From Branchiostoma floridae (lineage: Eukaryota; Chordata; Leptocardii; Amphioxiformes; Branchiostomatidae), in NCBI RefSeq assembly GCF_000003815.2, contig NC_049986.1, forward strand, positions 11,175,827 to 11,239,826: DNA of 64,000 bases, given 5' to 3'. A model generated the notes under the pieces. It was not told where the DNA came from. It did not search any database and saw only the letters and a program-made list of their open reading frames with translations. Numbering within the stretch: position 1 is the first letter of the stretch; each line of letters begins with the position of its first letter. The translations under genes were made by a program, and so were the position numbers. Below, piece by piece: positions 14,801-49,800 of the stretch.

Positions 14801-17800
14801 AATCTAAAGATACAACACCCAAACAAAAGGCCCAGCTTAGCAGCTTGGTTTATGGGGGTAATTAAAGTTTTTATGGAGGGAAAAAATTACACAAATTGTT
14901 GGAACATATGATCACATGTTTCTAAATTGTTCTAAATAAAGAGTTATTTGTACCATTACTTTCCCAATGTTTCCAACATATGCAGGTAGGTTCAAACATG
15001 TTCAAACTTTCATTTTTAATTGTTTGAACAATTTAGAACTTAAGTGACTGAAATATTCTTTTGCTTAGAATAGTTCAAACTTATGACAAATATTATTTTA
15101 AAATCCTCTCGGTGACTCGGAATTGACTCTAATGTGACGTATGTCTGTGTGATGATTGACATATCAATTAAATGACATTTATGTAAATCAAGATTTGACT
15201 TGCATGATGAAAAGTCATAAATTCAATGTATTGAGGTACTATAGAGTACAGTATATTGTATACATGTGTTGTTTGCCTGCAGGCCTGACCTGATGGTGAA
15301 GAAGCTGAGATATTATGCCAGGTTCATCGTGGTCTGTCTGCTACTCAACAAGACTCACCTGGTCAGGGACCTGGTTAGGGTAAGTCTACAGTCGTTCCTC
15401 AAGTTATCTTACGTCACACTGTGTACATCTTTGTTTCTGGTACATATGTTTGTTACCGTTGGGGTGTTCCCATAGTACACTGTAAGTAGAGTGGCAGGAA
15501 GTGAGTAGGGAGATAGCAGCAAAGGTCAAAGTTGAAGTACAGTTCAGAGGTGGCAGAACTAGTTGTTATTCAGACATGCATATGAAAGTCATGAGGTCAA
15601 TTGAAGATGCTACTAATTCACCAGAGGCTATTATTTTTGGTATAATGTCTCATTGTCTGTGCTTTCACAGTTATATACTTTTGATATGCTAATGACAGTC
15701 ACCATAGACTGACTGTTGGAGGAAAAGACCAATGACACATGTAATGTTAACTGAAACCTTATTTGCATAATCAATAAAATAAGTACAACTTAACCAGGCA
15801 CTGTAAATATTTCATGGAGTCGTGAGATCTTTATACTCTTGTTGAATATGTGGCATGTACAAATTGGCAATGTTAATACATCACCACTTCAAAAGTATTT
15901 TTACTTACAGTGTTTGTTATAAAAGGAAATTTCACATCCTGGTAATATAAATTTAGTATATCCTGTTATGCATACTGTAAAATGTGAACATTTGGCAATC
16001 TAAAATTTGATGTGCTAACGTTAGTTCACCTTTATTCGTGGGGTGAACAATATCCGTTGTGTTGATTAAAAGAGTATCTAGGGATATCAAGTTGATGCGC
16101 AATGACGGACAGTGGTTTCAAATTACCATATTTTGATATTATTACAGTTTGAAATCCCTAAATACTTTGTTCTTAAAAACGGATATAGGTTACGGTGTCA
16201 GATAAAGGTGAACTAGCGTTACATGTATAAGATTTAAAATGTTCAATGAAATATCATTCATCACATACATATGTAGTCTAGCAAGGAGGTTATATCACTA
16301 TATGTGATATAACCTCCTTGAGTCTAGCAAATAGTGCTTTTTACTAACTTGCTTGCCACTCCAAAATCATATAAGATGAATACTGAAACCTATGATTAAG
16401 CCACCTGATATAACAGATTTACTTTATAATGTTAGCCTTGATGATTTAGTGAGTAGAACTATAATATGTACATTTATTTTGTACTTCTATTTTGTAGTTT
16501 GTAGTTGACAATATGAAATACATATTGTATTTGTATGATGTACATTTTGTTGCACCAATGAAGCTTCTTTTTTTTTTTCTTTTTGTATGGTCCCTCCAAG
16601 TTAAAGCATTTTACAGTACTGTATAACCTTTACGAATAAAATTGTCCTATTGTTTGTTTTTTTTCCCTGAAGGAGTTGTCCAAGCAGATCCAGGACTATG
16701 GGAGTACCTACGACCCTGGTGACCAGCTAGAGTGGTCACTGGTGCTGGGGGAGGTCCAGGCTTTTCTGGACGCCGAGCCACTGGTCATTCTGGACACGGA
16801 GTCGTCCCCCGTCACGATATCCCAGCGCCTGCAGAAGGACACCGTACCGCCGCTGGAACCAGGCACTGAAGTCAGACTGTCTCTACAGGAGGTCATCATA
16901 GTGGGCAACAGGAAGGACCAGGTGAGTGTCGTATACATTGTGAATTGTGATACTGTAAATTCAGTTATTTTTTAAGGGACTTAATTGCATTATAGGGGGA
17001 AAGGAAGTTTTTAACTGTGTTTTAGGTTTGTGTTTGAAACAAATACAGTCACCATTGAAAAACAACACGTAGTCCCAGTATCATGATTTCACATGCAGTA
17101 AGAGGTCACAGAGAAAACTGCAAATATGCAACCAATGCAAACATTTCAAGATTTACAGTACTGTAGCATGCTTAAGAGAAAAGATCACAAATCTGTCCTT
17201 GGTGCTGAAACCCCTCCACACAAAAGTTAAGATACCTGCCCTTGGTGCTGAATATCTCACAAGAGAAGGATGAATAATTACATCCAACAGCATCTGCTAC
17301 ATAAACAACAAGAGTCTGAAAACTCAAACCTGCTTGAAATATTTTGTTTTGTGATGGTGCGCATGGTGTGTTGTGGGGGTTGATATGGTTTGACGTTTGG
17401 CAAAATTATTCCATCATTGTTCTTAAGTTATATATCTACCTATGGTAAACAGTCAGATCCAAAACTACACCTTTCTGATGTCCTCATCATTTCATTTTTA
17501 TTTCTTATTGTTACACCTGCACCTGGCACATACATTGTATCTCAATGTGTATATAATGGTTAACACCATACAGAGGTGACAGCGATGGTCACAGTTGCTC
17601 TTTTTTGCTCCTTGGAAGATTTTGACCAGAATGCCCCAGCAGTTCTAGAGCAAGCTGCTAGAGGGCCCAAACATACAACACTTCTTCCTTACACCACAAG
17701 CTATGTGCCACCAAAAAATCAAGACCATAGCATATCCATGTCAAAAGATACAAAAATCCAAGTTCTGTTGCAGTACCAAGGTCACACACCAGGGGATCCA

Positions 17801-25691: not shown

Positions 25692-27392
25692 GATGTGGCA
25701 GCCCTTCAGAAAGAGACAATCACAGGGAATGTACACCTGAACACCGCTTTTGGCAAAGTGCTAAGGAAACGTCTCGTGTATGATCCACTAACCAATTGTT
25801 ATATTCTTAAGATTGTCTTGAATATCATCATTCTTCATTTTAAATGGTCGTACTTTCGAACTTTAGGCCAATTAAGGCTCCAAAATTCTAACCCCTTTGC
25901 GAGCCTTCCGCTATTTCCCCATTCTCGAAAAGATCTATATTTTGGCAATTTGGCGGTCGTTTAACAGTTTTCTGGCCGCGGTCGTGATCGGTACTGCAGA
26001 TTAGGCTCTGATAGGGTATAACCTCCCAATTTGTAAATCTGTCAAAACGTACAACAGATCAAGCTCAAATTCAGCAAATGCCTTCCCTAACAGATCACGA
26101 CACCATCACAAATATTTAGAATTAGATTTCAGACTTTTCAAAAACACCAGTTGACAATTTGTGGATGACTCACGCGTAGCCATTTAACAAGGTGCCCGTC
26201 CGTCAAAGCGCCCCCTACATTAATGTACAGATTACCTTTTGTGCGTAATGAGTTCATTTAAGATATATATGGACATCATCCGCCTTTCCATGACAATTTT
26301 GGCATTTCATTCAACTGTTTGTCCGCTTGTATGGGGTGATGGACTGTCAGAGAAGCCCGACCATCACTCAGAAAACATTACGATTTCACCCCGACATCTG
26401 CTCGGAGACCTGATCCGATTTCTCATGAGTCTTACAACTTTGGCCTTTTACTTTACTTTTCATCCTCTTATGTAACAAACATTTGGAAAACAAGCCGTCA
26501 TTGATATAACAAAGAGATATACCTGCAAAAGGTATAGATTGGTAGACTGATTTTCTAAAAAAAATACTGTACTGTGTGTCCAAGGAGCTCCTTGGTGTGT
26601 CTTAGCCTCTTTGCAACAATGCCATTTTTTAGATATCAAATATCAGACTGGCATGGTTTGCTGATGATACTGTTCTCAAATAAATCATTCATACCAGAAG
26701 GAAAGACATCGAACGTCCAACCTACAATTCCAGACTGCTAGGAAATTTCCAAAATGACAGCCAATGTTGAGTAAAAGGCTAGATTTGTCAGGAGAAAGCG
26801 GGTGATGTCTTCCTTTATACTTTATCGAACAAAAACATGATGTGTTTATGAATGTAGGCGGCGCTTCGAAAAACGGCCACCATGTAACATGGGCTCCTTG
26901 CAAGGCGCATAGAAGTTTATAATTTTTATGTCAACTCGTGTACTTACAATTCTGACATCTCATTCTAGATGTAAGTGAGGACGTCTTGACCTGTTTGGAA
27001 AAGTATTCACGGGCTTTAGCCTAAAGTCGTATATATTTTCGCATTTTTACAAGTTGGAGGTTATACCCTTTGAGAGCCTAATCTGCAGTACCGCTCCCGN
27101 NNNNNNNNNNNNNNNNNNNNNNNNNNNNNNNNNNNNNNNNNNNNNNNNNNNNNNNNNNNNNNNNNNNNNNNNNNNNNNNNNNNNNNNNNNNNNNNNNNNN
27201 NNNNNNNNNNNNNNNNNNNNNNNNNNNNNNNNNNNNNNNNNNNNNNNNNNNNNNNNNNNNNNNNNNNNNNNNNNNNNNNNNNNNNNNNNNNNNNNNNNNN
27301 NNATATGACATGTCTCCTTTACACTGTTGAATAGAAGTGGTCGATTTTGCAAATTCTCTGTGATTGTCTCTTTCTGAACAATAGCCACATTC
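25692..27392. mobile_element. Large inverted-repeat element with arms of about 345 bp
   Basis: The left arm has TTCAGAAAGAGACAATCACA near 25706 and ACTGCAGATTAGGCTCT near 25992. The right arm has both reverse complements (near 27377 and 27085). The right arm is partly hidden by the gap at 27100-27302. About 1 kb of interior holds no recognisable transposase. It is probably a long-TIR, non-autonomous DNA transposon. Confidence 0.6.
26581..26594. mobile_element. Micro-palindrome, 14 bp, with 7-bp target duplication
   Basis: CAAGGAGCTCCTTG is a perfect palindrome flanked by GTGTGTC on both sides (26574-26580, 26595-26601). It has the ends and duplication length of the longer copies at 16282, 38812 and 41315. 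It sits inside the larger inverted-repeat element. Confidence 0.6.
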
Positions 27393-31776: not shown

Positions 31777-34700
31777 CGCATCTTTTGTATCGCATATCGT
31801 GCTTTTCTTTTCCGCACTTCTTTCTTCTGACCTTCCTTCAATTTGGAAGCGTGACAGAAGCATTACGCTGAGAATGTAGTAATTATCGATTACCAATACG
31901 GGATTATCGTTGCGTATCGAATACAAGTATCACACTAGTATCGCACAAAGCAAGCGATGAAATAAACCGAAATGATTTAGATGTAGAGTGTTAGCTGGGA
32001 GTCAGTGATCATGTGATTACATTATCTGGCCACAACGTTCCCAGATAAATGAGTTATTGGTCTGTCTATATCTGTAAAAAATCAAAGAGAATGGCGTAAC
32101 CTGAAATAAGACAAAAAGGAAATTGGAGCAAATGAGATAAGGTATAAATGGAATCAACCTAATGAAATAAAGTAAAGTGAAGAAGATGAAACAGAATGAA
32201 ACGAAATGGAAGAATATCCAAAGAAGGATGCGTGGCAGATGTACTTTAGATCCTCAACGGACTCCATAATCAATGGACCAGTTACAAAGTTGTTCCAACA
32301 CGAAGGAAGCACTCACCATGAATCTACACAGATGAGTTTTCATTCGAATAGTCAAGACCAGCTTTAATTCTTTTTTTCCGTCCCTCTCATTGTTTGGGAG
32401 TCAATGTTGTTGATTTTCATCAATTTTATGTACTGAAGTTCAGATTTTGGGAACGGATGGGGTGAAATTTTTGTTCGTTTCAACAAGCAAATTTCTGTCC
32501 CGGGACAGAGGAATGGATCCTGGAGACTGCCCTGGCACTCACTACCCACCTTTCTCGGCGTATGGGATGCCCATACACTTGCCGTCCTCTCCCCTGAACT
32601 TCCAGCCGTGGAAGGGGCACTGTAGACAGTCTCCCACCACCGTGCCTCCCATGGACAGGTCCGCACCCAGGTGGGGACAGTAGGCATCCAGCACAGACAC
32701 GCTCCCACCAGCACTCCGGAACACGGCAAGCTTCTCTCCTAGAAAAACGGGGTTTTGTTACGGTGGTACAAAGAATATTAAATGCCTTTGGTCCTTCCGG
32801 AACACAGCAGGTTTCTACGCCAGAAAAACGTGCTTTTGTTACCATGTTTCAATGAATAGGAAGGCAAGTAAAATGTGTTTAATTGGTCCAAAAGGATTTA
32901 TTTTTGTAGCCTCCGCTAGGCCTTCCTAATGGGATCTGGATAGTAGAATTCGGTAGCCTGGGTACCATACGGATAGTAGTTCGCTCCTATGTTCGCTTCT
33001 GCTATCCACAGAGAAGCGACTGTATATAGTGTATAATGAACACCGGAGCGAACCACTTTCCGGATGGTACCCAGGCTAAGAATTCGGTAAATGTATGGTG
33101 AACAAGATATAAAAAACGGAAGTTCCGCTGCAGTGTCTTGGACAGCCGATAGGGGGCCCACAATAGAACTTGACCTTCGTTTTCTTGCCACCAACCAAGT
33201 ATCACGCACACACGTACACACACAGACACACGCACACGAGCAGACAGACCAAAAACAATGCCTCCATTTTTCATGAAGGTAACAATGGTAACTGCGCTAG
33301 CAAATAAAACCCTATGGTGGCCAAATTCCTTCCAGTAAATCAGTCTTTCTTTAGCTACATAATATAACTTCAACTTAAACGATTTCAGCTAGCGTTATTA
33401 GTCTGGTGGAGACTATTCTTACTCAGGGTATTATCTCATTATTTTTGTACAATGCACACATAAAGATATAGTGACAATTTGTCCCCATATCTTTATGTAT
33501 GCAATGAAAAAAGAAGAAGTGTAATAAAATTGTAATTTCCATCGCTGTATCAACATCTCACGTGACAAGCCGACTACCTTATGATGTAAGGTAGTCGGCG
33601 TCATTAGGGCAAAAGAAATTGCCACACCTCATTTGCAGAAGATCCTGTATCTATTTGTTTAGAACAAACCGTTGAAGACCACGCCCCCACCAATTGACTG
33701 TGATTTCAAAGTGCCCCTCCCACTATTCATTGTGCAGTGTGTAATTTGTGACACGGCCCCGCCCCGGGCCGGTTAATTGCTACTCTAAATGAAGATGTAA
33801 TTGTAACTGCAGATTTAAATGCACTGTTAAGTTAAGTCCAGTGCATGAGGCAAGGTTGTCTTGGCGGATGCCTGCACTTTACCAGTAACAGCCTTTGTAA
33901 AAAAAACTTGTTAAAATACATTTCCTGACGCCCCTTGGGATTTTCAAATGGTACCGCCCTAGTAATTAGATTGTGTTGAGCAGATCAAGGGCTCAGCATT
34001 TGTTACTGAGTAATTCATGGCTTGTTTTCGGACGCATTGATCGCCGTTGAGCGTGCTGAATACACGTATGTTGACAGTAGTCCCAGTGACATGCCACACC
34101 CCAACGAAACTCAGAATGGCCGCTTCCGGAATCAACAAAGCGTGACTATTGGTCTGTTGGAAGTCTGTGTCGGTGCGACATTGGCATGACATGTCGGGAC
34201 AATTGGGGTATTGCAGGTCTTACTTTGGCAACCCAAGCCAAACTGACTCATTTTTCTTTACACGTGCAACAGAGCGCTGAAAATGGATCACGCTGTGGTT
34301 AACCCTGCTCTTTGTTCTCAGTAGAAAGGGTTAACACGCTTTGTAGACACACTGTAGTGTGTGATGGGACAATTCCGTTAGAAACATACGCCACCCCGCC
34401 CACCAACACACATACACACAAGCACACACTAATAATGCATATTCGAGAAATATAGAATGACTGTCCCTGTGTGGGTTAGCCTGGGTACCCAATCCTGAAG
34501 GTACTAAGTAGTTCGCTCTGACGTTTATCATACACTATAACGTTATACAGTCGCTTCTTTGCTGTTCCAGAGAGATTATAGGAGCGAACTAATAGTACTA
34601 ACCGGATGGTACTAATGCTAAATATGGGTCGCCAAGCATTGACATGTAAGCTGTAACGCTACAATAAAAAGTTACACGATTACTTTACACCAATAGAGCA

Positions 34701-36456: not shown

Positions 36457-39054
36457 ATGGCGGCCGGTACTGGACGTTTGGTAGGACGGTTGGCACTTGT
36501 TACAGGTGATCATAGCTGCAATAAAGTTACATGGATATCAGAAATGTTTAGTATGGAGTATGTTAAAGTGGTGGCTACAACGAGACTGAAATTTCGTGAT
36601 TTGCCTAGCTCCTCAGTTCAAAGTTTGCCCTTTAACAGCAATGCCAATAAAACCATGCAGGTCATCAATGCAGTGGTCGAATACTTCATGTACATTTAAA
36701 ACATTGAAACAAAAAGGCTCGTTTATATGGAAGGTTATCATTTACATAAAGGCTCAGCAAAACCCACTGACAACATATATTATTTGGTTGACCAAGAATA
36801 TAGATTTAGGTTTAGAATATATCAAAGACCCATGAAAAAATAAATTTAGGTTGACATTTGCATTTTGAAGTGAGATTTGAAGCATCATCTGCATCCTTCA
36901 GTCTCAGATTTGATGCTAAATTATTCATGTAGCACTTTTCAGATTAATGGTTAATGTTATGTTTTATGACTAAAACTATCCATTTCATTGCAATTAGTTC
37001 CATTACAGCATAATCCCTCATTTTGCACATTTTATGAAATGCTGTGCCATCATTCCCAAGCTGGAAGATTTTGCATATTGCTGTCAACTTAACTTCCGTC
37101 CGGAAACTGATTTTTGAAGCTACTAGTAAACGTGTGTCAACTTTTTACTAGGTGGAGGCAGTGGCATTGGGAGAGCAGTCTGTCAGGCATTGGCAGCCCA
37201 GGGGTCAAAGGTGGCAGTGGTGGACATCAATGAAGCACCAGCCAATGAGACGCTCCAGTCCCTGTCATGTGACCAAGGCTTACAACATCACAGTTTTGGC
37301 TGTGATGTGTCCTCTACCCAGTCTGTCAGTCGACTACTGACTGATGTTACCCAGAAGTTTTCCTGTGCTCCTTGTATCACTGTGAACTGTGCTGGAATCA
37401 CCAAGGATGAGTTCCTCTTGAAAATGGACAACAGAATGTTTGATCAAGTTATCAAAGTCAATCTCAAGGTAAGATCTTAGAAATTTATCAAACAGTATAA
37501 AAGGGGTAGTTTCTGCTGATATGGTCTTGTAAAAGTTTGTTTGCGGTTGTCATTGACTTTGCATAATTGAAAAACTTTTTCACTTCATGATATATTTCTG
37601 ATAGCCCAGCTGTCTGATATGGTCTTGTCAAATTATGTCGGTAAATATCAGTGACTTTTACAATTGAATACTAGTACCACCTTTTTTCCAGGGCACATTT
37701 CTGATAACCCAGGCAGTAGGCAGGGCTATGGTAGAGGGCAAAATCCAAAATGGTTCCATCATCAACATGGCCAGTATTGTTGGCAAGGTGAGGACCTTAA
37801 GTTGGACTTGTACAATTTTACTATTCTATATACCAATAAATTACCTGTATCTATGGTACAAGAGATTTACATTTTTCTTCCTCTATACTAAAAATTGTAA
37901 TCTATTCCATTTAACTAACAGGTTGGAAATCTTGGTCAATGCAACTATGCTGCCTCTAAAGCTGGAGTGGAGGGGCTCACCAGGACAAGTGCCAAGGAAC
38001 TAGCCAAGTGAGGATAATACTCTGCGTATGACCTTTGTTAAGAGTCAAAGCATGTGCATGTACTACAGGGAATTCATACATGGAAGAGGAGTTTATTGAC
38101 AGATATGCACACAAATTTGCCACTTTGTTTTTCAAAGAATTTGTCACACTCAATAACTCATAGCAAATCTATGGACATTATCATTATCAGCTGTCTTTAT
38201 GCAGTTTTGATTTCTGCCATTTTCTTGCTTTATTTATAGGTTTGGAATCAGGTGTAATGCCGTTCTGCCTGGATTTATTGAAACACCAATGACTGATGCT
38301 GTGCCACAGAAAGTTCTGGACAAGGTGAGATGAAAGAACCTCTTTGATTGGTAATATCAAATCAACAATGACTGATGCTGAATCAAATGAAGTGCTGGAT
38401 GAGGTCAGATGAAGGAGTCTATTTGATTAGTGAGATCAAACAACACCATTCAATGGCCACCTTACTATGTAAAAACATCAATTTACACATGTATATTTTC
38501 CATTTCAGTTTAGAGATGTTATACCAATGGGCAGGCTTGGCAAACCGTCAGGTAAGAAGGTCATGTTAAATGATAACATTCTTTATTTCCTTTGTCAATT
38601 TCTTTGTCAATAGATGATGCTATACAATGACTTAAAAAGGCCTGAGCAAATGAGGATTTTTTCCAGATATAGCAGATGTTTGTGTATTCCTGGCTTCTGA
38701 AGAGAGCAGTTATATAACAGGAGCAAGTATTGAAGTAACAGGTACGTTGTCTTAACATAATCACCTTATGTAGAAACAAGAATAAATTTGTGAATCTGAA
38801 ATATGCAAAACCAAGGACGTTATATTATATGTGATATAACGTCCTTGGCAAAACCAATGACCTACATCTCTGGCAACCTAACAGGAAAAAGTGCAACTGA
38901 TTTTTTGCTTGTGTATGCCTAATCATGATGACTACTGTCATATTTTAAGGTCCAATATTAAGTCAGATATTGTTCTTGATTCAAGCATGAGCTGTGGTAT
39001 AGATAATAAATAACAGATGGTTTTGTTATTCCCTTAGGTGGCCTGAACATATAA
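36457..39054 (+). CDS. HSD17B8: 17-beta-hydroxysteroid dehydrogenase 8-type short-chain dehydrogenase
   Basis: Eight exons: 36457-36505, 37152-37468, 37692-37787, 37922-38007, 38240-38324, 38509-38551, 38667-38741 and 39038-39054. They total 768 nt (255 aa), all GT-AG and in phase. The cofactor motif TGGGSGIG (residues 16-23), NCAG (95-98) and the catalytic triad Ser150, Tyr163 and Lys167 (NYAASK) are intact. The C-terminus has [10 protein letters not shown] and [14 protein letters not shown]. These, with the length, match HSD17B8 better than bacterial FabG or CBR4. In vertebrates it oxidises estradiol, and it is also the alpha subunit, with CBR4, of the mitochondrial 3-ketoacyl-ACP reductase; either role is possible here. 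It is convergent with DNTTIP2. The last exon codes for only five residues and the stop. Confidence 0.93.
38812..38847. mobile_element. Micro-palindrome, 36 bp, with 7-bp target duplication
   Basis: The 14-bp stems CAAGGACGTTATAT/ATATAACGTCCTTG surround TATATGTG. GCAAAAC lies on both sides (38805-38811, 38848-38854). It is in HSD17B8 intron 7 and is the closest relative of the copy at 16282. Confidence 0.75.
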
Positions 39055-40867: not shown

Positions 40868-43800
40868 TCACTTCTGTTTCTTCAGTCTCTTCATGTGTCG
40901 ACTCGCTCCTGATGGGCGTTTCTTCCTCAGCTTCTCCTGAACATCGGAGTACTTCTTCTTGTTATACCTAAAAGATAAAGGGAAATTGCTTCATGTCCAG
41001 GTACTTCCAGCCTGCTACCTTAATGGGAGGGATTACCAAATAGACTTTCCTATGCCATACATGGTTAAGACATGCAAATACAATCACTTCAAAACACAGT
41101 TATTTACCTACATTTCAAATTTTAACCCCCACTGCAAAGCTGGCAGGTCTGAATTGGTTCAAAACGCTACAGGTCATCTCCGGAATTTCAATGAGCTACA
41201 GCTAAAAGAATGAAATAACACCAGGATTTCACCCCCTATTTCAATGGGTCAGTCCAGCCAGTGACCTCCAATTCAGAGGTCACCTACAGGTCTAACATGA
41301 CACAAAAGTCACAGCAAGGAGCTTTTACCTGATATAAAAGCTCCTTGGTCACAGGTTGTTTGTTTTTTTGCAAACTTTTAGAATAGACATGCTTCTGTCA
41401 TGCGTAACAGAAAACTCAACCTTTTTCATTTAAAAAATTGCCCAGGAAAATATATTTGATTTAATGTTCGGGCTAAGTGTGCCCTAAACTGCATAACTCC
41501 AATTTTTGCCCCTTCCCCAAAGTCCCTCTTTTCAACCTCCTTGCTGTTATTAAGTGATGGCAAAGAAAATATGGATGCATGTCCTGTTTCTTCATGTCTC
41601 GTGTTTGGCCACAAGACATGAAGAAAAAGGTACGAAATGGGAAGCCTGATAAAAATGCCTAAAAACACGTCAGAACAGCTTAGAGAGTAGCATTTGGGTA
41701 TACCACAAGATGCCAGTGTCATTTTATTTTGCCAGCTCCAAAATTAGAGAATCTTGAAATTCTTTGGGATCATAGGTGCTTTGTCACATAAATACAGGTA
41801 GTATTGAAGTGAATCCAAAACTGTCAATTTTACCTGCAGTTTTAACCCCAGCTAATAGGAGGCGCTGGTGAAATGGGTCCTCTTAGGTAGGCACAAACAC
41901 TCATCATCATGGCTGCCTTAGGGTAATTATTTACACCTGTCAATTCCATCCAATGCTAATCAGGTGTTTAGTACTTTATGGAAAGACCCAAATCAAATGT
42001 TATAATTATCTTTATATAAATAAATCCTCATATGTTGTAAGTTGGGACCAGATGTCAACATTAGATTTTAGGATCAGAATAGTAACACACTTATACTAGC
42101 ATCACATATTTTGTCTGATGCAATAAAGTGAACCCTCTATCATGGCCACAAGAGAGACTTTCTTTCGGACCCACCAATCGCCTAGTTTCTCTCAGCTTTT
42201 AGGTACATAAATGAATATTTAGTCATCGCAATGAGCAAAAGTGTTCATTAATACCGGGTTATTTGCAATAAGAAAGTTCTCAGACTAGAGGTAACTATTT
42301 TTGTTGCTTTCAACATACTTACTTTCTGAACTCGGCATCTGCCAGTAGTTCATCCACAATGGTAGCCTTCCTGTCCTTCTTTGGGACCCGTGAACGGTAG
42401 AAGTCAGCGGGGCTGTCCTCCACTGTACCCATCTACATGTATGTGTGTAGCAATACATTAGCAACATTCAGAGAGCCTACTTAGATATGTACACACTTGC
42501 AGAGTACACAATATAAGACAAATGAAAAATTTTCAGCTAAATTCTAAATAAATTTTTGTGTCAAAATATTTTGGATCCAAATTAATTTTCTCAGAAGGCC
42601 ACGCTAATAATCACAATTTTATTTTTCAGAAAACTGAACTTTTAATTTTAATTCTATTTAAAAAATTTTAAATGTCCTTGTTGTTCAGATCTTTACTTTA
42701 CTATGCTATACTAACATTAATTATTGAAAGTAATACGTACCTGGAAGTACTTAGGGTATGCCTCTCTGTCATTTTTCTTGTAGAATCTTTTGGGGTCCAA
42801 AACCTTTCGCATCTTCAACACATCCAGGTCATTCTTAGTTTCAGCTGTCAGCTCAGGAGCCTTCATGTCAAACCATTTCCTGCCTGTCGATGCTTCGCGT
42901 TCCTCCTGTAATCATGCACACAAACATATTATGTTAATGTTCACAGAAGGTAAACATCGTTTTTGCCCTGTTTCTTCTCCAAACAAATAAGGTCCAGGAC
43001 CAGGCAGCTGTTACCATGGTTACCGGTAAAGTAGCAGGCACCCTATGGTATTTGGTTACATAATGTAAAAAATGGCTTGATACAGAGCTAGAGGGGCTCA
43101 GGTCACTAAATTTAGAAATGTGTTGGAATAAGAATAAACATAACAGTTGCCATTGTTAGACTACAACATGTGAAGGTGAACATTATGTATTTGCTGTTAC
43201 CTTTCTAGTTACATTATGTATTATGCTAAAATATAACAAATTCATGCACCTATCCAATTCTTAAAGGTCATCCCCTATATGTGTAGCATATAAAATTTTA
43301 GAAATTATAAAAGTATAAAGAAAATTCCTTGGGGGAAAACTATTCAGCCATGGTACAGGAAATATAACCTGTAACTTAGCTGTGACATATACAATACAGT
43401 TCCATGTAAGTCATGCTACAATGCTAAAGTACAAGGCACCTTTCTTTTCTTCTTCAGCTGCTTGACAGTTTCCTTGTAAGGAGGCACGCTGTGCTTCTGC
43501 TCAAAGTCTGGAGTCACCACACTCTTTTTCATTATCTGGAAGAAACAACAAGAATTAAGTCTTCTTTCCAAAAAGTTTAACCATGTTTCCGTCTACTTTT
43601 GATCACCATCTTTCACGAATACTTTATATCTTTTTAGTACCACACCAATTTTATTTGTTGCTTCTCAAATTCTGCTGTCCTATTTTTTCCACTTTGAGGA
43701 AGGAAAGAAAAATTTACTGCCTCTCCTGACTTCCAAATAAACGATGGGCCTCAAATTTCTGTGCCTGTACATGTTAATATTGGATGGTAGGTATATTATT

Positions 43801-46800: not shown

Positions 46801-49800
46801 TGATGATGAAACAGAAAACTATCTAGCCAGCCAGAAGACACAAGAATGAAGCACAGCCAGCCATCCTACAATACCATCATCATAAGTCTTGTCCACACAT
46901 TGTGGAGAACCAGATGTTGAACAGGATCATAACTCAAATGACAGTCCTGAACAACTATGATCTGGATCATGAACAACTATGATCTGGATCATGGTTCCTT
47001 TAGAGGACAACTTATCATTTACTCTCATGTTAAATCCAACTATTTGCATCATATGCACAACTGCTTCAGCAGAGGAATGTGGCAGTGCACAGTAAACAAT
47101 ATCAAGAGGTCAAGGGTCACTTCAGCTGTGCTTCAGTTCCAAAGGACAAAAACAGAAACACACACGGTAAACGTGATAGGATGTATATGTCCTCAGTAAT
47201 ACATGTAGCCTCTTGATGCAGTAATTAATTTTGCTTATGCTTCTCTGACAAATAAATTCCCAATTTCTTGTTTTCATTTTCATGCTATTTTGGGGCAACT
47301 AAGCAAAATGTACTCTACTGTAAAGCTACTGCTTGCATAAAAGCTGTTTAATTAAAATCATTAGCCCTGTTTCACTAGTTTACTAACTGGTAATAAGTAA
47401 ACAATAAAAACAAAGGTGAACACTAAGCCTATTGTGCTGTTTCAGTTAGCCTTGAAAATAATTTGTCATGGCCTTTGGCCATGTATGTATTGTTCCCAGC
47501 AACATCAGTCAGTCACATGATTGTGCAGGGGTGATTGTTTATCCAACCGAACATTCAACATGTGCATTTGATAACATGTCATGTTTATAAAAATATACAA
47601 GTCAGTATCTTTTTGGCAACTAAAATTCCCACAATAACCAGGATCCAGGTTCTAGTTTGTGGAAACATTCTATTGTTCTTTTCTGATTTGAGCAAAAAAA
47701 GTACAAATGTATTATTCTGGTTAGATGTAATATGATGTATCCTATCCCAAAACACGAATATTCTAGGACCCACAATTTAGGAAAGCCCTCGCCTTCTTAG
47801 GTTTTTCAATGTATTCATGTATCAAATGCTCAACATTCATTGTTTGAAATGTCTGACAGCTAAATGGCTATACTGTGGTACAAAATGTTGTTTTTCTATT
47901 TTAAAGCCCACTCTAGTCTATTATATATAGTATTAATTGAAATGCTTTTCCTGAAAAATCTGGGAACCAAGAAATCATTTAAGTGAGGCCTAAAACACTC
48001 TTGGGCAAAAAAGGCAGTCACAACGATTATGGAAGATAAAGGATGTTAAGTGCAGATGGTGTACACAGATCACAAAATGTAATAATTAGTGTTACATATA
48101 CAAACATGGGTGTGTATGGATAGTGTCTTCCACTGTAGAACATGCGGTTTGTTGACAATCAACCCTTCTGCCTTCGCATGTTATAGCTCACCTTACCAGT
48201 CACCTGTCCAAGTACATGTACACAGCTGTGTCCGATCACAACATTGTGGACAAATTAGTTGTTCCTTTTGTTGAAAACTGTTTTCTAGCTGTAGCCTGTA
48301 TCCCATTTACTGTTCTTGACAAGCACTATTGTTTCTTTGACAAAAATATGACATCAATCAAGGTATGGAACAACTTAGTATTTTACCTAATAATAGGTAA
48401 TTCATTTCCAAATCATGTATTTGCTTGAATTTTGTATTCATCAGCAACAGCATTAGACATATTCCTGAGGGGTTAAATTCCATTGACAGCTCTCCACTCT
48501 AGCTGCATTTTCCCTTTGGAGTATCTAACAAACAGCAGTACAGGTGTTGAAGTATGTATTTGGGGAGTAAATGTACGTTGTAAGTGTATTTGTTGTTGTC
48601 TGCATTCCCACGGTGCAATTCAGCCAACTAAGCATATCATGTTGACTGCCATACTGTTATGTTTGAAACTTTGAATAAAACCAAATAATCATCATCATCA
48701 TGATATTTGGTATGTTGGTCAGTGCTGAAAGTGAAAAAAAATTATATCATGGGGCCCCTGACATGCAGTTATGATATCTTGTGTACTGGACATGTTTTCC
48801 CAAGGCAGCTCTTGGGCTTGCACAGACGTGGTAAATGTTTTTGGCCCCTAGCAGCTTCTTTGGAACTGCAGGGCAAATTTGGACATTTTGATGGAGGAAA
48901 ATTTTCAAAATAGGTCACAGATTATAGACTTTATATTTGTAGGTATTGGCAGTATGATGTACATATTTATGCTAATCATGCAGATGAGTGCCTCATTTGC
49001 ATAAATTGCTACAATGACCTTCTTTGCTAGGATAACACTATACTTATTCACTGTTCTTGTGTAAGGGGTTATCTACAGTATATAAAAGTGATACACAGTG
49101 ACATTCTGGTTGCAATCTCCAGTTTTGGACTCTCAAAGTATCAACTTGATATGTATGCAAATGATTTCACTATCGGAGACAAACCTCCTGTCACAAAGGC
49201 AGCATATTCCTACATCATGAACATTACATATTTTCATGGAGTACGTAGGACATACATTTAACTTCATACCCCCCCAATTTTAACATCACTTTTTCTTATC
49301 AAAATTTTGTAGCTGGATAGAATTTGTCACAATGGTTACAAATAAATTCAAATTGTGGCTATAGCATGCTACCTTCAACCATTACGTCATTTTGGAAAAT
49401 ATTTTCCACAGACTTTTTTTTCAAATGCCTAGAGGCTTGAACCTTGAACGTGGACATCTTTTTGGATGCCATCACGGGTCACAATGGATCCTTAAAATTG
49501 GCTTAAAATTCAATCAACTGTGAAAAATTACCATTAACACATTCAAGTTAATCATATACAGGTGGTATCAAGATCTTAAGCTCAATTAGTATCACACACC
49601 AAAAAGGTTTTATTCTGGCATGCACCAAGGAGATTCTATTTAGGCAAACACCAATTAATACTACCTCTTCATCCTGTCTATCCTTCATCAGGATGTTTGT
49701 CATGGTGGTGGTTTCTGCTGTCGGGTGTCGGTTGTCCAGGTTCAGGTACGTCTCCCCGACATCAATGCCAGGGTCAAGTTCAGAAGACAGCTGAATCCTG

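Follow-up and report, generated by a model that had tools for sequence, protein, structure and literature searches.

Introduction

Footprints left by P-element excision are an already known kind of sequence. According to excerpts of the respective reports, Drosophila P leaves 17-nt 3' tails (PMC7776569), and the repair junctions of Drosophila P{wa} keep the target duplication and stubs of both ends of up to 17 nt, joined at microhomologies or through inserted bases and with recurrent joins such as AAC(AT)GTT (PMC2895639). Galileo, a P-superfamily element of Drosophila, makes 7-bp, sometimes 8-bp, duplications with the palindromic consensus GTANTAC (PMC4168063, excerpt), and Pdre2/THAP9 of zebrafish is a chordate P-superfamily element whose 13-bp terminal repeats start with CA (PMC10983969, excerpt).

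The lancelet sequences analysed here resemble these systems in the respects just named, although the 17-nt length of tails and stubs may hold for them only approximately. They differ from the excised Drosophila P elements, which in the excerpt of PMC2895639 carry 8-bp duplications and CATGATG ends and come from laboratory flies, in having duplications of 7 (sometimes 8) bp and CAAGGA ends and in lying at natural genomic sites. The associated elements differ from Galileo, which according to the same excerpt of PMC4168063 has long terminal repeats with a different start and in which scars are not surveyed, and from Pdre2, for which the excerpt of PMC10983969 gives an 8-bp duplication and the THAP9 transposase, whereas here the first transposase exon matches a RAG1 importin-binding model. 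We find that these tiny palindromes are, with high probability, excision footprints (scars) of P-superfamily transposons and not miniature mobile elements. The open-access papers listed yielded no report of such scars, of a 7-bp version of them, or of these elements in B. floridae, and the scar end strings were not found in the open-access papers searched.

Results

The window, that is, the whole 64,000-nt stretch of Branchiostoma floridae DNA analysed, holds four short CAAGGA...TCCTTG sequences, each flanked by exact 7-bp direct repeats and given here without strand, at the positions and with the 7-mers listed by an earlier sequence-only reading. That reading had called all four perfect palindromes, which is true of the 14-bp sequence at 26581-26594 alone, the other three consisting of arms around a middle of 5-8 nt. 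The 39-bp scar (16282-16320), between copies of AGTCTAG at 16275-16281 and 16321-16327, has 17-bp arms around 5 nt and would divide into a left stub of 17 nt (16282-16298), a middle TATAT (16299-16303) and a right stub of 17 nt (16304-16320). The 36-bp scar (38812-38847) is of the CGTTATAT end type, lies between copies of GCAAAAC at 38805-38811 and 38848-38854, and has 14-bp arms around 8 nt; its probable parts are a left stub of 14 nt, TATAT at 38826-38830 and a right stub of 17 nt at 38831-38847. The 33-bp scar (41315-41347), of the GCTTTTA end type, has 13-bp matching arms around 7 nt and is bordered by GTCACAG at 41308-41314 and 41348-41354. The perfect palindrome CAAGGAGCTCCTTG (26581-26594), bordered by GTGTGTC at 26574-26580 and 26595-26601, could be two CAAGGAGCT stubs with AGCT in common as a candidate join. 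In an inverted-end scan of the window that accepted any 6-bp ends within 200 bp of each other, these four sequences alone carry an exact 7-bp flanking repeat; in a first-order Markov simulation (n = 100, window length, pairs within 60 bp), such structures average 0.15 per sequence and never exceed 1.

Across the genome (513-Mb assembly, 431 contigs), CAAGGA-N{0,30}-TCCTTG has 6857 matches, against 865 for the reversed pattern. The sites read were picked by pattern, non-randomly and mostly on contigs C1 to C5, and comprise 95 distinct sites including the four in the window. Exact flanking repeats are of 7 bp at 54 of these and of 8 bp at 4, lengths found in the P superfamily, with 4 bp at 1 and 3 bp at 2; repeats of 5, 6, 9, 10 or 11 bp occur at none of the 95, and when flanks are paired between sites, 9 of 8930 such pairings agree over 7 bp. 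The sequence-only reading had taken the flanking 7-mers for target-site duplications and proposed a genome-wide check, which, run on this sample, bears it out. Of 50 listed places, 43 were fetched; the flanks repeat exactly over 7 bp at 18 and over 8 bp at one, and 24 show neither, some of these being one base off and others resembling background; a further 20 CGTTATAT-end sites, two of which are copies of one locus, give 12 exact and 2 one-mismatch 7-bp repeats. The 7-mers follow a palindromic target consensus close to GTYNRAC, with T and A further out. A figure of several thousand scars genome-wide is an extrapolation rather than a count.

We find that the scars consist of two terminal-repeat stubs whose join point varies, with microhomology of 1-4 nt, blunt joins or filler; their centres vary widely from site to site, and filler reaches 14 nt. 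The pattern CAAGGAGCTTTTATCAGN{0,30}TCCTTG occurs 156 times forward and 169 times in reverse, with none in the control, and 97 listed places were dissected. Taken at its least, the left arm measures 15 nt in 6, 16 in 23, 17 in 42, 18 in 19, 19 in 3, 20 in 1, 21 in 2 and 34 in 1, shorter left arms being unseen because the pattern demands 17 nt on the left; right arms run from 6 to 21 nt. Junctions carry filler in 22, are blunt in 20, and use microhomology of 1 nt in 37 and of 2 nt in 18. The commonest join, at 23 of the 97 listed places, is read as pairing of the final G of one 17-nt stub at a point two bases into the other. When 20 of the 97 were read with their flanks (10 with the commonest join, 10 chosen from the others), 15 had exact 7-bp duplications and one an exact 8-bp duplication. 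Some scar sequences are found unchanged at many sites, between duplications that differ from site to site (L147-L156), and L160 has filler similar to its own flank, as would follow from templated insertion.

Where scars have the CAAGGAGCTTTTATCAG end type, most arms end at 17-18 nt, a length near that of the P-element overhang (17 nt), and a stagger of exactly 17 nt may apply here. A 22-nt stagger had been suggested by 22 nt common to the right sides of both long window scars. It is now the less favoured value, as most arms whose terminal repeat is known end at 17-18 nt, so that TATAT may more simply be filler, though arms of 19-21 nt also occur.

Scar size is capped. Among forward matches of the CGTTATAT type, TCCTTG follows within 30 bases in 313 and at 31-60 bases in 21, and at least 5 of these 21 are two adjacent scars with one 7-mer between them. 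Such pairs, of the same or different end types and exactly one 7-mer apart, lie at C1:23628122, C5:11947384, C5:21613862, C11:8879522 and C13:19194510, and look as if a second element had reused the duplicated target of the first. The 14-nt CGTTATAT end itself occurs 610 times forward in the genome, and 20 ends lacking TCCTTG within 30 bases were read from those listed on C1, excluding L069, which had been read already. At scar distance, 8 of them have exact and 2 one-mismatch 7-bp duplications with truncated or altered right ends, and a clear duplication is absent at the other 10. The right end is reduced to about TTG in L122 and L127, where the duplication is present, and lacks its last seven bases in L108; duplicated sites with almost nothing of one end cannot be transposing units. 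Two complete ends around a common interior, as in a MITE, are not shared by the palindromes: centres differ, and one end is nearly absent in some. The 20 sampled CGTTATAT ends are either scars or have no common interior beyond about 20 nt, with the exception of L112/L113, one locally duplicated pair.

In tandem units at L065 (C3:2184600-2185500), one target is empty and two hold scars of 38 and 36 bp between 8-bp duplications, a paralogous empty site beside filled ones that favours the scar reading; the two scars differ by AT in the centre, which could reflect either independent excisions or later change within the palindrome. A nearly identical 52-bp sequence starting CAAGGACGTTATAT is present on four contigs (C4:28370370, C10:17354105, C13:14545158 and C349:10789), perhaps a scar carried within another repeat.

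Larger relatives, which the sequence-only reading recommended seeking, exist as elements of about 1.19 kb whose ends are of the same kind and whose target duplications are likewise 7 bp long. When the left end of the P-transposase locus L028 served as DNA probe, 40 of 62 candidates were scored as matches, the probe itself among them, and 38 of the 40 start at the first base of CAAGGAGCTTTTATCAG. Of 17 copies read, 14 lie between exact 7-bp duplications (13 of them 1179-1190 bp long, and L133 of 923 bp), L138 has a duplication with one mismatch, and the partner is absent in L134 and L139. L133, a shorter relative, has kept its exact duplication with terminal repeats rearranged at both ends. Thirteen aligned copies are 97.8-99.8% identical, which suggests recent movement. 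The elements have inverted ends and a duplicated palindromic target, a trait of the P superfamily, and over their first 563 bp they share 82% identity with the end of L028, where P transposase sequence lies beside this related end. We consider these elements the likely parents of scars. BLAST of the 1.19-kb elements against the window found no similarity, and the window end types GGTTATAT and CGTTATAT showed no tie to an intact element. The idea of a wholly 'ghost' system was withdrawn once intact elements were found and is kept as a possibility for CGTTATAT ends only.

The Pfam P-transposase model PF21787 matches at 3 places in the genome, and a transposase protein probe gives 5 matches at 4 loci. 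The two long copies, L028 (3221-9234, C19) and L029 (548-6903, C11), sit between inverted CAAGGAG(C/G)TT ends about 7.9 kb apart. Their transposase pieces match RNase-H N-terminal, GTP-binding and RNase-H C-terminal models, the catalytic domains of P transposase, with PF21787 at 8.4e-22 and 6.2e-21 and PF21789 at 3e-8 and 3.3e-7; the GTP-binding model PF21788 matches one piece at 1.9e-5, above the Pfam cut-off, and the other three of four pieces below it. The first exon matches the RAG1 importin-binding model (PF12560, RAG1_imp_bd) at 3.4e-7 and 3.7e-6. An N-terminal THAP domain is usual in the P superfamily and is not treated here as defining; none was matched in the 18 pieces scanned. At both loci a second gene, convergent and coding for about 350 aa (54% identity of L028 to L029), has no Pfam match, and searches of solved structures with the transposase and this second gene gave no match. 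At the ends drawn for L028 and L029 neither shows a 7-bp duplication, and at L028 the similarity between right and left ends extends over 13 nt only, so the borders of the two loci are uncertain. As a probe, the L029 end matched itself alone.

Discussion

In the origin we propose, a P-superfamily DNA transposon would insert with duplication of a 7-bp target, its transposase would excise it by a long staggered cut after which the chromosome retains at most some 17 nt of either terminal repeat, and end joining would seal the break, with trimming of the ends, at short microhomologies or by adding a few bases. The product would run duplication, left stub, filler where present, right stub, duplication. 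The transposase described above may have made these cuts, and joining of the polymerase-theta type may have sealed them. No site was seen in both the intact and the scar state in the one genome searched.

The sequence-only reading had instead proposed an ultra-short hairpin that transposes, so that the window sequences would be hairpin-only elements of 14-39 bp inserted by a P-like transposase. Each of these does have two ends and a target duplication, and the recurrence of exact sequences with different duplications, as in the commonest join and in L147-L156, is readable as copying; recurrent joins at short microhomologies occur in P excisions too, however (PMC2895639, excerpt), the sizes fit two short stubs, and neither the widely differing centres with their filler nor sites such as L122 and L127, which could hardly have inserted almost without one end, suit a mobile unit. 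We consider such hairpins improbable, since elements of about 1.19 kb with ends of this kind exist and the palindromes are built as excision followed by end joining would leave them; the guess of a P-like source enzyme fits. Chance palindromes with chance flanking repeats would account for part of the loose pattern, which has a background in the reversed control, and for some of the 24 of 43 fetched places lacking an exact 7-bp or 8-bp repeat, but not for four sequences in a window where 0.15 are expected, nor for 54 of 95 sites against 9 of 8930 control pairs; chance is excluded as a general account, and its probability is negligible.

Scars of another superfamily with 7-bp duplications, such as Dada, whose enzyme is not seen here, would suit the end types that have no tie to an intact element. 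Against such a source, the end of the GCTTTTATCAG elements is also that of a P-transposase locus, and CAAGGAG(C/G)TT ends border each of the two long loci with P transposase; Dada or an unknown superfamily was set aside once these loci and the related 1.19-kb elements appeared, and we now regard it as very improbable. The preferred reading, excision of P-superfamily transposons, has a broader form that we judge evenly balanced: that a chordate genome records several thousand germline P-superfamily excisions, including a CGTTATAT end type possibly surviving only as scars, and that their source is a P lineage that has a second convergent gene, bears an N-terminal zinc domain of RAG1 type in the usual place of THAP, and cuts with a stagger near the 17 nt of Drosophila P.

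If thousands of natural scars are confirmed, the rules of chordate germline end joining and the cut geometry of the transposase could be read from a reference genome, and counts of surviving copies would underrate past transposon activity. The RAG1-type N-terminal domain of this P transposase is relevant to the origin of the corresponding part of RAG1. An excerpt of a 2015 paper (PMC4411706) states that, among known transposable elements, only those of the Chapaev/Transib group have the Chapa domain, the paper's name for a truncated N-terminal portion of RAG1. The Pfam RAG1 match found here may be this domain, and the RAG1-type domain on the present transposase goes beyond that excerpted statement, as far as later open papers were searched.

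Other sequences in the window

An Rfam search gave no match, and three one-ended candidates in the window are at about the level of permuted motifs (25 matches over 29 motifs). At 41543, on the minus strand, CAAGGAGGTTGAAAAGAGGGA is identical over 21 nt to the L029 end (position 182), and neither a partner end nor a duplication was found for it. In the inverted-end scan, a 22-bp tandem repeat at 46948-46993 takes on the look of an inverted repeat flanked by an 8-bp duplication. At 32954-33078 lies a 125-bp element-like inverted repeat beginning TAGCCTGGGTACCAT, flanked by exact 9-bp repeats AGAATTCGG.
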